A stretch of 25,893 nucleotides of DNA from a virus. The position numbers and the translations under genes were made by a program. Positions 6,618 to 14,307 of the stretch are shown here, one piece after another. Location of the stretch: IMG/VR virus record IMGVR_UViG_3300031974_005110, positions 1-25,893 of that record, one strand, 5' to 3'. Position 1 is the stretch's first letter, and every line of letters begins with the position of its first letter. The notes beneath the pieces are model-generated. The model ran no database searches and had not been told where the DNA came from. It saw only the letters and a list, made by a program, of their open reading frames with translations.

Positions 6618-7244
6618 ATGCCAAACTGGAAAAAAGTCATTGTATCCGGCAGTAACGCCGTGTTAAATCACGTAACAGCTAGTGGTCACATGTCCGTATT
6701 AGACGGAGGTTTAACTGTAAATACACACACATCTACTACAGAATTAGAAGTTGTAGGAAATATAAGCGCTTCTAGTGGAAATATAACAGGTAATAACATT
6801 ACAGCTGCTAATCAATTAGATACTAAATATAGAAGACTTGACATTACTAATAGTTCTTTAATAGATGATTATAATGGTGATGTAGTGTTTTTTGGTGGTG
6901 AAGGAACAAGTTTTACTCAAGGTTGTATCCATGGATATGACGGTACCAATTGGAATAGAGTAGCTAGCAATGGGAGTAGTGCAGCAGGAACTAATTTTTT
7001 AGCTATAGCACTAGGAAGTAATGCTTCAGATGGGATGTTAATTAGGGGTTTTTATACTAGAGACTTAGTCTTAGGCGCTGGAGGAAGCTCCTTATATTTA
7101 GGCTTAAATGGGACTTTTAACGATGCGCCCCCAACTGGAAATGGTGATTATTCAAGAATTGTAGGACATTTACTTCAACAAGTCGGATCTAATGCTCTAA
7201 TTTATTTTAACCCAAGCCCAGATTGGATCGAAATTGAAGTGTAA
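6618..7244 (+). CDS. Short fibre-like protein (MPNWKK family) with C-terminal module B
   Basis: A 208-residue protein beginning MPNWKKVIVSGSNAVLNHVT, a short member of the same N-terminal family as the 667- and 874-residue proteins. Residues about 45-70 contain the beta repeat VVGNISASSGNITGNNIT. Residues about 84-208 form a domain (NGDVVFFGGEGTSFTQGCIH ... IYFNPSPDWIEIEV) homologous to the C-terminus of the 767-residue protein, which ends IYFNPESSWIELT. The protein is therefore an anchoring leader joined to a receptor-type or trimerising C-terminal head with little shaft. Its stop overlaps the next ATG (TAATG). A minor fibre or tip protein is likely. Confidence 0.8.
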   Translation: MPNWKKVIVSGSNAVLNHVTASGHMSVLDGGLTVNTHTSTTELEVVGNISASSGNITGNNITAANQLDTKYRRLDITNSSLIDDYNGDVVFFGGEGTSFTQGCIHGYDGTNWNRVASNGSSAAGTNFLAIALGSNASDGMLIRGFYTRDLVLGAGGSSLYLGLNGTFNDAPPTGNGDYSRIVGHLLQQVGSNALIYFNPSPDWIEIEV

Positions 7245-10748: not shown

Positions 10749-13052
10749 ATGGCTAGTACAATAATAACAAAAAATGGAACCGGATCAGCATCTCCCTCTT
10801 CATTACAACAGGGAGAATTAGCTATTAATGTTGATAATGGTAAAATATTTTATGGGGCTAAAGGTGGGACTGCTGTTTCAAGTAGTTTTACTTTTGACGA
10901 ATTAAAAGTAGAAGGTAATCTTACCGCCCAGCAATATATAATATCATCTTCAGTTACATATGTTACACAATCATTTAGTAGTGGCTCGACAATTTTTGGA
11001 GATACACAAGACGATACTCATCAATTTACTGGTAGTGTTGATATAACAGGTAGTATAATAGCTACTAACTTAAGTGGCACAAATACTGGTGACCAAGATT
11101 TATCTTCTTATGCTTTAATAGCAAATATTTCTGGTGCTTTTGCAGCCGATAGTGCCTCATTTAGTACTAGAATAACTGCAAATGAAGCTGTAACCTCTAA
11201 AACCTTAATTTCTTCATCAGCACAAGTTGATCATGATCAAACAACCAACTTTAGCGCAGATGAACACTTTACCCAAGCTAACATTACAACTGTTGGTACA
11301 GTAACTTCAGGTGATATAAGCGCAATTTTACCAACAGGTACTGTTTCCGGATCTTCTCAAATCGACCTAGGCTCAGCATCAGGTACCATAGATATTTCAG
11401 ACCAAACCAACTTAGCAGGAGGTACTAATATTACTCTTAGTGATGATACTATAAATCTTGACGCTAATATTAGTTTAACTAGTGTAACTGCTTCAAGCAA
11501 CATAAGTGCAAGTGGTGATATATTTTCTAACAATGCTACTATAACTACTCAATTAACGGCAGCAGGTATAGCATACCCAACAGCAGATGGCGATAATGGA
11601 GACGTGTTAATAACAGATGGCGCTGGTAATTTATCATTTAATAGAACCACAGTATATGCTAATGTAAAAAATGTCCATGGTAGTGAACTAGTAAAAGGCA
11701 TACCTGTCCACGTTACTGGTGCCGTTGGTAATACTAGTGAAGTTGTAGCAGCATCTGCTTCAAATGCTGCTACAATGCCCGCTCACTTTATCCTAAATGA
11801 AACCTTAGCAGATGATGCTGAAGGTTTAGCAATTGCTATAGGTTATATAAATGGAGTTAACACTTCTGGATTTAGTGAAGGTGATACTGTTTATGTAGGA
11901 GCGAATGGTGGTTATACAAATGCTAAACCAACAGGATCTAATTTAATCCAAAACTTAGGTATTGTAGATAAAGTAGATGCTTCAAATGGATCAGGGTTTG
12001 TTTTAGGTGCAGGTAGATCAAACGATGTACCAAATATTTCTCCTGGTTATGCTTGGGTCGGTAATAGTGATAGTGTTGCTACAGCAGTTGCTACCTCATC
12101 ATTTATTCCAGCTGGCACAGTTTCAAGTTCTGCACAAATAGCATCTGATATAAGTGGATCGTTTACGGAAGCATCTGGAGGATTTAGTTCTAGAATAACC
12201 ACTATCGAAGGTGCTGGATATACTACAAATACGGGTACAGTAACTTCAGTAGGTGGAACAGGAACCGTTAGTGGCCTTTCACTTTCAGGTACCGTAACTA
12301 CTTCAGGCAACCTTACTTTAGGTGGTACTATATCAATATCCTCAACCAATATTACAGACGTAGATGCCTTCTCACAAACAGGCACTTATGCTTCATTAAG
12401 AGCCCAGGGTACTACAAAAGGAGATGTTGGCTTAGGTAATGTTGAAAATACAGCATTATCTACTTACACAGGTAACGGAGGTGCTTTAGATAATCAATAT
12501 ATTGCTAATGGTGCTGGTTATTTAACTACAGTTGATATCTCAGACGATACTAATTTAGCAGGAGGCACTAATCTTACCCTGTCAGGAGATACTATAAACC
12601 TTGATGCTAATATTAATTTAACTAGTGTAACTTCTTCAGTTATATTAACAGATACTAGACACCTTCCTAACACTGATGGTTCAGATCAATACTATGGGGA
12701 TGTAGTAAAATTTGGTGGTGGTGGTACCTTAACCCAAGGCAGCATCTATTACCTAAATAGTAGCCAAAACTGGGCCTTAGCGGATGCTAGTGCCGCTTCT
12801 ACTGCTAAAGGTATGTTAGGCATAGCAACTTCTACAGGTATTGAACTTTTAGTTAAGGGTATAGCCAGACATGGAGGATGGGCAGGATTAGGCCACGGTT
12901 CAGTTCTCTATCTATCAGAGACAGCAGGTGAATTAACAACTACTGCCCCTACAACCTCAGGAGCAGTTGTAAGAGTAATAGGGTATTGTACTAATACTAC
13001 TGTTAGAGAAATTTATTTTAACCCAGAAAGTAGCTGGATTGAATTGACATAA
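10749..13052 (+). CDS. Large modular tail fibre protein
   Basis: A 767-residue tail fibre-type protein. The N-terminus MASTIITKNGTGSASPSSLQ followed by QGELAINVDNGKIFYG is a common fibre start. A 36-residue repeat occurs at residues 214-249 and 595-630 (30 of 36 positions identical by eye). A domain at about 300-430 (KNVHGSELVKGIPVHVTGAV, GFSEGDTVYVGANGGY) resembles a head or knob module of marine phage fibres. Residues about 550-570 have TKGDVGLGNVENTALSTYTG, the classic phage tail-fibre repeat. The C-terminal ~130 residues (GDVVKFGGGGTLTQGS ... YFNPESSWIELT) are homologous to the 208-residue protein at 6618. It is coupled by TAATG to the methyltransferase. Host recognition is inferred. Confidence 0.85.
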   Translation: MASTIITKNGTGSASPSSLQQGELAINVDNGKIFYGAKGGTAVSSSFTFDELKVEGNLTAQQYIISSSVTYVTQSFSSGSTIFGDTQDDTHQFTGSVDITGSIIATNLSGTNTGDQDLSSYALIANISGAFAADSASFSTRITANEAVTSKTLISSSAQVDHDQTTNFSADEHFTQANITTVGTVTSGDISAILPTGTVSGSSQIDLGSASGTIDISDQTNLAGGTNITLSDDTINLDANISLTSVTASSNISASGDIFSNNATITTQLTAAGIAYPTADGDNGDVLITDGAGNLSFNRTTVYANVKNVHGSELVKGIPVHVTGAVGNTSEVVAASASNAATMPAHFILNETLADDAEGLAIAIGYINGVNTSGFSEGDTVYVGANGGYTNAKPTGSNLIQNLGIVDKVDASNGSGFVLGAGRSNDVPNISPGYAWVGNSDSVATAVATSSFIPAGTVSSSAQIASDISGSFTEASGGFSSRITTIEGAGYTTNTGTVTSVGGTGTVSGLSLSGTVTTSGNLTLGGTISISSTNITDVDAFSQTGTYASLRAQGTTKGDVGLGNVENTALSTYTGNGGALDNQYIANGAGYLTTVDISDDTNLAGGTNLTLSGDTINLDANINLTSVTSSVILTDTRHLPNTDGSDQYYGDVVKFGGGGTLTQGSIYYLNSSQNWALADASAASTAKGMLGIATSTGIELLVKGIARHGGWAGLGHGSVLYLSETAGELTTTAPTTSGAVVRVIGYCTNTTVREIYFNPESSWIELT
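11388..11495 (+). repeat. Internal 36-codon repeat, copy 1
   Basis: Encodes IDISDQTNLAGGTNITLS and 18 further residues. It matches the copy at 12531-12638 at 30 of 36 amino acids with no length difference. Probably a duplicated fibre shaft or linker segment. Confidence 0.7.
12531..12638 (+). repeat. Internal 36-codon repeat, copy 2
   Basis: Encodes VDISDDTNLAGGTNLTLS and 18 further residues, the second copy of the repeat at 11388-11495 in the same fibre gene. It lies immediately before the C-terminal module shared with the 208-residue protein. Confidence 0.7.
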
Positions 13053-13612
13053 TGAGTTATTTAGATCAAACATTAACATTTACTGATAACAAAATTTGTT
13101 ATGTAGATGGCGATACTGAACTTCAAGTAATGATGGATTGGGAAGATTCTATTATGTCAGCTTCGGCAGCTTATGTATGCCAAAATGGAGGTGATATATT
13201 AGAAATTGGGTTTGGTATGGGTATATCGGCTGGATATATTCAATCACATTCAATTAATTCGCACACCATTATAGAAAATCATCCAGATGTGATTTCTAAA
13301 GCACAAACATGGGCCCAAGGAAAATCAAATATAACTATAGTAACTGGAAGTTGGTACGATGTAAAAAACGATCTAGCAACTTACGATGGGGTATTTTATG
13401 ATACTTGGGGCGATGATAATATGAATCAATTTAGTTCTTCATTATCATCATTAATGAAAGCAGGGGGAGTAGCTACGTGGTGGAACAACGAACCTACAGC
13501 TACTAACTATTATAATATACCTAATATTACTTATGATTCTTATAATGTAGCACCCCCCGAAAATTGTTATTTTAACCATACAACTTACTACTTACCAAAA
13601 TGCCAACGTTAA
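13052..13612 (+). CDS. SAM-dependent methyltransferase, GAMT/RMT2-like
   Basis: A 186-residue class I methyltransferase. Motif I is DILEIGFGMGISAGYIQ (residues 48-64). A strand ending in an acidic residue, HTIIENHPDV (E75), should bind the SAM ribose. The post-motif strand is YDGVFYDTW (D117), followed by the helix SSLMKAGGVATWW. GFGM rather than the usual GxGxG, the upstream MDWED (E31) and YDT are the hallmarks of guanidinoacetate N-methyltransferase and of arginine delta-N-methyltransferase RMT2. In GAMT the Glu of WE and the Asp of YDT contact the guanidinium group, and both appear conserved here. It is shorter than GAMT (about 236 residues), lacking the N-terminal arm and part of the C-terminal half. 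It lies between fibre genes, coupled by TAATG upstream and a 13-base overlap downstream. Substrate unknown; arginine in a virion protein or a guanidino metabolite is inference. Confidence 0.85.
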   Translation: MSYLDQTLTFTDNKICYVDGDTELQVMMDWEDSIMSASAAYVCQNGGDILEIGFGMGISAGYIQSHSINSHTIIENHPDVISKAQTWAQGKSNITIVTGSWYDVKNDLATYDGVFYDTWGDDNMNQFSSSLSSLMKAGGVATWWNNEPTATNYYNIPNITYDSYNVAPPENCYFNHTTYYLPKCQR

Positions 13613-14307
13613 ATCCAAGTAAATGGGGTGAGGTTAGAAAAGTCAGCCAAACTACTCACACAGGTGCCAGAGATGCATCTACAGGTTTTGGAGCTGCCCA
13701 ACCTACATCAGATGACACTTCGGGCGGCGAAGGAATTCAGTATAAGGCACAATCAGGTAGAGGGGGCCTATCATATAACATTTACAGATCATTTTTCTAT
13801 TTTGATACAAGTGGAAACACCGGAACTATATCAAATGTAACTCTTAATTTGATAGGTGTATCGGCAGCATCCGCAGATGTTATAGTAGTAAAAAGTACTG
13901 CTTTTGGGGGTAACGGTGTAAGTGCAATTGATAATGATGATTTTGCTAACGTAACCTTTGCAACACCTTATAGTTCAGAATTTACTAGCTGGACTACTAC
14001 CACAGCTAATATTGCTATTCCTTTGAACTCTACCGCAGCAACAGATATTCAAAATAACAATTATTTTATCTGTGCTGTAATAGAACATGATCATGATTAC
14101 AGTGATAGTGACCCGGGTACAGCAACTACAAAAGCTTCTGGCGTACGATGGTCATCCGCCGGCGCATCCTTTACATTGAGTTTTGATGAAACAGTAGCAT
14201 CCGGCCCCGCCAATGTATCAACATTTAAAGGAGTTGCTAAAGCTAATATTTCATCTGTTAAAGGTGTTTCTTTTGCAAATATTGCTAACATAAATGGTGT
14301 TTCTTAA
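13600..14307 (+). CDS. Putative adhesin / tail fibre protein with beta-sandwich and GV-NI tail repeats
   Basis: A 235-residue protein. The start overlaps the last 13 bases of the methyltransferase gene. Residues about 60-200 form a beta-sandwich-like domain (RSFFYFDTSGNTGTISNVTL, SADVIVVKSTAF, ANIAIPLNSTAATDI), a pattern seen in surface adhesion domains. The last ~30 residues (VSTFKGVAKANISSVKGVSF, then ANIANINGVS) are a repeat of the GV-x3-NI-xx-I type found in phage structural proteins, related to the N-terminal segment of the 313-residue protein. It may attach this adhesin to a partner or to the virion. No catalytic motif is seen. It is probably made by translational coupling with the methyltransferase. 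Confidence 0.75.
   Translation: MPTLNPSKWGEVRKVSQTTHTGARDASTGFGAAQPTSDDTSGGEGIQYKAQSGRGGLSYNIYRSFFYFDTSGNTGTISNVTLNLIGVSAASADVIVVKSTAFGGNGVSAIDNDDFANVTFATPYSSEFTSWTTTTANIAIPLNSTAATDIQNNNYFICAVIEHDHDYSDSDPGTATTKASGVRWSSAGASFTLSFDETVASGPANVSTFKGVAKANISSVKGVSFANIANINGVS

Follow-up and report, generated by a model that had tools for sequence, protein, structure and literature searches.

A GAMT-family methyltransferase gene in the receptor-binding operon of uncultured phages

What might a phage modify with a methyltransferase whose gene is embedded between a tail-fibre gene and that of a putative adhesin? Most of what is known of the guanidinoacetate methyltransferase (GAMT) family concerns creatine synthesis in animals and the modification of a ribosomal protein by RMT2. 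The gene discussed here lies on a viral sequence of 25,893 nucleotides (IMG/VR record IMGVR_UViG_3300031974_005110), the whole of which we call the window. The following features of the window bear on the question:

10749..13052, plus strand: tail-fibre-type protein (767 residues, open reading frame); its C-terminal ~135 residues (about 630–767) are a shared fibre-tip domain ending in VRVIGY..IYFNP.
13052..13612, plus strand: GAMT-family class I SAM-dependent methyltransferase (186 residues), assigned by sequence match, AlphaFold2 model, Foldseek and residue conservation.
13600..14307, plus strand: CBM-like beta-sandwich protein (235 residues), a putative receptor- or polysaccharide-binding partner and candidate substrate, with C-terminal repeats of the GVAxANIxKVNGV type.
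13756..13767, plus strand: codons G53-R54-G55-G56 of this downstream protein, the highly conserved GRGG turn of a predicted beta-hairpin and a speculative acceptor site.
6618..7244, plus strand: 208-residue open reading frame in which the fibre-tip domain occurs a second time; it has no adjoining methyltransferase and serves as an internal control.

The fibre stop codon TAA (13050–13052) and the methyltransferase ATG (13052–13054) have one nucleotide in common, and the methyltransferase stop (13610–13612) lies 13 nucleotides inside the 235-residue reading frame, which opens with an ATG at 13600. These overlaps bear out the first-pass annotation, which had placed the start of the methyltransferase in the fibre stop and its end across the downstream start. 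The sequence elements on which that annotation relied (LEIGFGMG, IIE and YDGVFYDT) are all present in the 186-residue protein, and its numbering of E31 and D117 is correct. The second fibre-tip reading frame, which has no methyltransferase next to it, suggests that several fibres share a common tip.

Family and fold of the methyltransferase

Among PDB chains, a single-sequence phmmer search with the 186-residue protein found four GAMT sequences at E values of 7e-16 to 5e-15, with 3orh as the best match (7.4e-16), and the next unrelated chain followed at 5e-3. A 13-row profile matched GAMT at 5.6e-21 and the next chain at 2e-4. An AlphaFold2 model based on 49 aligned window and locus proteins (pLDDT 94.9, pTM 0.91) retrieved GAMT chains as its top five Foldseek matches (TMq 0.73–0.84, E 3.5e-14 to 3.5e-13), after which came spermidine synthases at 1e-7. 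Searches of Pfam, NCBIfam and PHROGs with the same protein gave generic sub-threshold methyltransferase matches or none. A tree separates the TrmB-type enzymes, at 100/100 support, from a group that joins the phage proteins to animal GAMT and the GAMT-like proteins of bacteria. Profile and structure searches thus favour the GAMT family proposed at first reading over an unrelated class of methyltransferase. A defence role was dropped, as the PADLOC match to mad2 (E 1.3e-6) is confined to the generic Rossmann region and falls far short of the matches to GAMT.

The GFGM motif had been taken as a mark of GAMT. It holds as part of a combined signature (VM..WE, GFGM[AG]I and DG(I/V/L).(Y/F)D) and fails on its own, since tRNA m7G methyltransferases of the TrmB type also carry ILEIGFGMG. 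An alignment with rat GAMT (1xcj) places E31 opposite E45 and D117 opposite the catalytic D134. E45 of GAMT takes part in guanidinium binding. Asp134 acts as the proton acceptor (PMC12842229; PMC12471008). All 72 distinct phage homologues keep E31, D117 and the SAM-binding motif GFGMGI unchanged, which argues for an active enzyme. The suggestion that E31 and D117 are counterparts of the guanidinium-contacting residues of GAMT is supported at the level of alignment, from which their placement in the acceptor pocket was judged. We infer that the phage protein is an active methyltransferase with a guanidinium group as acceptor.

GAMT (3orh, 1xcj, 1khh) is the closest relative in both sequence and fold. 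The two proteins have in common the WE glutamate, GFGM[AG]I, the catalytic Asp of YD(T) and a C-terminal PP..C/N.Y...P motif, which in the phage protein reads PP.N.YFN...YLP and corresponds to PPADCRYYAFPQMITP of GAMT. Identity in the structural alignment is only 25–27%, and the operon context of the phage gene is also unlike that of GAMT. The phage protein is shorter (186 versus 236 residues) and carries its WE at residues 30–31 instead of 44–45, so that the N-terminal lid, which in GAMT comprises residues 1–42 (PMC12842229), is about 14–15 residues shorter. Where GAMT has YDTYP, most phage members have YDT[WFY]G(D/E), and the window protein has YDTWGDD. The C-terminal helical segment of GAMT, about 30 residues after the TWWN strand, is absent. 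An orthologue of the creatine-synthesis enzyme would be expected to carry YDTYP, the helical segment and a lid of ~42 residues; as the phage protein lacks all three, we file it as a divergent GAMT-family guanidino-N-methyltransferase and not as GAMT itself, an assignment that draws on sequence and predicted structure. The shorter lid and the loss of the C-terminal segment probably leave a more open pocket, which would suit a protein substrate.

Gene linkage and distribution

Relatives of the methyltransferase are encoded on at least 362 stretches among the 2.9 million contigs of IMG/VR, whereas a single record among 50,697 annotated phage records has the enzyme, that of a metagenomic phage of 634 kb which is itself unannotated. 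The carriers are many uncultured, mostly marine phages. The tail sheath encoded in the window is closest to that of the Immutovirus phages of Flavobacterium (52.6%), and one methyltransferase homologue lies on a contig of a Flavobacteriales MAG; the host is therefore probably a member of the Bacteroidota. Several relatives carry two tail-sheath genes in tandem (L001, 4341–8160; L007, 3330–6865; L008, 2767–6729), and the window has one.

Linkage was counted in the 86 loci left after removal of duplicates of the same contig. Directly upstream of the methyltransferase, 67 of the 81 readable loci have a reading frame that ends in the shared fibre-tip domain, and the downstream reading frame belongs to one CBM-like family in 83 of 85. 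The linkage to two virion genes seen in the window thus extends to its relatives. The downstream partner is present even where the upstream gene is different (L033, L045, L048, L052, L053, L064, L083 and L087), and the downstream linkage is therefore the tighter one. Two distant members are without this partner, L012 and L013. The first (L012, 9968–10582) has genes of the baseplate-hub region on one side and the next tail gene on the other, with no fibre-tip gene nearby. In the second (L013, 9667–12555), which is a 634-kb metagenomic phage (LR745206.1), a 46% identical enzyme directly follows a fibre-like reading frame of 762 residues.

The AlphaFold2 model of the downstream protein is a beta-sandwich (pLDDT 88.9), and the PDB entries that it matches best in Foldseek are CBMs that bind chondroitin sulfate or alginate (E 1e-4, TM 0.4–0.6). 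These matches make "adhesin", the earlier label for this reading frame, a reasonable description that is now better supported, though still an inferred one, and the predicted fold suggests a surface-binding partner. In the model, strands E46–53 and E56–69 flank the GRGG turn. The end of the protein (window positions 14200–14304, and the same place in relatives) consists of GVAxANIxKVNGV-type repeats, which in some loci are replaced by SGKYKIxSGKIKI tails.

A scan that started from the downstream gene alone, without the enzyme as a query, gave 73 informative loci; the enzyme adjoins the downstream gene in 52 of these and is absent from 21. Homologues were found with a narrower alignment (A4), because the diverse one (A3) has too few conserved stretches, and the GRGGG-based pattern biases which of them were found. 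When all loci are pooled, including those first found through the enzyme, the enzyme lies directly upstream of 96 of 117 distinct downstream genes, and the other 21 follow the fibre directly. No copy of the enzyme was found elsewhere in the 19 enzyme-less records searched, all of which are fragments. The tree requires at least six independent changes between presence and absence. Immutovirus has a tail fibre with the same tip and neither the enzyme nor the downstream gene. The methyltransferase is an optional cassette in a receptor-binding operon. An optional gene beside otherwise matching partners provides a ready natural comparison for the function of the enzyme. What this large uncultured phage group carries in its receptor-binding operon is a real, conserved GAMT-family enzyme with intact catalytic residues.

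Candidate substrates and alternative functions

We favour the view that the enzyme modifies an arginine of a co-encoded virion protein, the CBM-like protein being likelier than the fibre, and give this tentative proposal slightly less than an even chance. A minimal, catalytically intact GAMT-family enzyme would be translated together with a tail fibre and with a virion protein that resembles carbohydrate-binding ones. Its Rossmann core would bind SAM, and E31 and D117 would hold and deprotonate the guanidinium group as E45 and D134 do in GAMT. Given the probably more open pocket, the acceptor would most likely be the side chain of an arginine in either of the virion proteins encoded alongside. 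A methyl group on an arginine that contacts the ligand would take away one hydrogen-bond donor and add bulk, and could in this way tune or protect receptor binding. Virion arginine methylation is our best hypothesis rather than a result.

As a test of substrates, arginines were compared between loci that carry the enzyme and loci that lack it. In the fibre tip, R742 never varies in either set (58/58 with and 21/21 without), and position 703, an R or K, is conserved equally in relatives that have no enzyme. In the downstream protein, R54 is found in 70 of 71 loci with the enzyme and R63 in 71 of 71; each is present in all 17 loci without it. R742 was accordingly dropped as an enzyme-linked signature, as was the presence of R54 and R63. 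Since the candidate arginines are kept equally well without the enzyme, linkage alone names no target, and none of the residues simply follows the enzyme. The first-pass annotation had proposed modification of Arg side chains in the fibre or adhesin, or of a guanidino compound; for this part of its claim, no specific substrate is supported. Distance matrices showed no clear co-evolving partner: the correlations of the enzyme with the downstream protein (rho 0.34) and with the fibre tip (0.21) were only modest, and no better than that with the tail tube, which a small subset of loci has.

Where the enzyme is present, the span from R54 of the GRGG turn to F68 measures 15–17 residues (95 of 96 loci); where it is absent, the span is 12–14 residues (17 of 21 loci). 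With independent lineages as the unit, three of the six that have no enzyme show the shorter hairpin (sign test, p 0.25), an underpowered comparison that was spotted post hoc. We regard the suggestive difference in hairpin length as a lead and not as evidence of a site, and the choice of R54 as methylation site is speculative. The full scenario, in which a GAMT-derived enzyme dedicated to virion arginine methylation acts on the hairpin arginine of the CBM-like protein and forms a switchable cassette that was repeatedly lost, with the hairpin remodelled afterwards in some lineages, seems to us quite improbable.

Two further points count against methylation of a virion arginine: the substrate of GAMT, the characterised close relative, is a small molecule, and the residues that follow D117-T differ from the YP of GAMT. 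The first point speaks for an auxiliary metabolic gene that methylates a small guanidino compound of the host (arginine, agmatine, guanidinoacetate or similar) and owes its place in the fibre operon to late expression or to history. Some bacterial relatives are also encoded near small-molecule enzymes, with a SAM decarboxylase gene beside L096 and PLP enzymes near L097. However, a metabolic gene would be expected to relocate, whereas the phage gene stays very tightly linked to one set of virion proteins in loci that have diverged greatly, and only L012 and L013 are apart from the downstream partner; nor was an amidinotransferase or kinase partner recognised within the window. We consider this explanation unlikely. 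The second point, together with the divergence of the phage members from cellular GAMT-like proteins in the C-terminal part and the spermidine synthases as next structural neighbours, would fit an active methyltransferase whose acceptor has shifted from guanidinium to a different side chain (in a protein of the virion or of the host) or to a sugar or lipid of the host surface. To this we assign a similarly low probability, given the strict conservation of the two acidic residues that contact guanidinium and of most of the C-terminal PPxN.YFN...YLP, the equivalent of PPADC.YY in GAMT. A mainly structural or assembly role for a protein that merely kept its methyltransferase fold, by analogy with gp38 of phage T4, the gene of which sits after fibre gene 37, seems less likely still: the position directly after a fibre may recall gp38, and the protein is short and nearly always encoded in a virion operon, but one would expect a scaffold to have lost some of the residues E31, D117 and GFGMGI that are invariant in 72/72, and the fibre tip occurs without the enzyme in Immutovirus and in 21 distinct loci.

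Comparison with known methyltransferases

A candidate model for how the phage enzyme might work is RMT2, a protein arginine delta-N-methyltransferase of fungi and plants with a GAMT-like catalytic core that acts on an internal protein arginine. RMT2 carries an N-terminal extension, and the phage protein of 186 residues has no extra N-terminal domain. Canonical PRMTs (types I–III), which add a beta-barrel to the Rossmann domain and have double-E and THW loops, were rejected, as the phage protein is a single Rossmann domain without a beta-barrel and matches no PRMT family in Pfam or the PDB. TrmB was rejected as well: the window protein lacks the FPDPWxKxRHxKRR motif. The L099-type sequences have it and branch as a clade of their own; on the strength of this motif, we take them to be TrmB. 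The genome-scan matches from L099 onward were set aside as unrelated, TrmB-like GFGM proteins.

Bacterial GAMT-like proteins of unassigned function (loci L094–L098) share the motifs VM..WE, GFGM(G/A)IS, DGILFDT and PP.DC.YW with the phage proteins at 30–37% identity. Unlike the phage proteins, they keep the C-terminal helix and, with the exception of L097, the DTYP that follows the DG motif in all other aligned cellular members. Their recognised gene neighbours are metabolic or signalling genes, and their hosts are Actinomycetota, Bacteroidota, Pseudomonadota and candidate phyla. The L096 protein, next to the SAM decarboxylase gene, has a fused membrane-like N-terminal region.

One UniProt entry, "Putative guanidinoacetate methyltransferase [uncultured marine phage]" (A0A8D9CBY1), belongs to the same phage family (41% identity, TM 0.90), so that a GAMT annotation for this family already exists, as a database annotation only; our literature searches found no study of the phage methyltransferase family or of this entry. 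Methylation of Lys and Arg in virion proteins, including R23 and R580 of a tail fibre, has been reported for Cellulophaga phages (PMC13288928), and modification of this kind therefore exists in marine Bacteroidota phages. In that report the methylation is attributed to host enzymes (PMC13288928); by contrast, a GAMT-family enzyme inside the receptor-binding operon of a large, nearly uncultured phage family would stand as a clear example of an enzyme that likely methylates the virion and is encoded by the phage.
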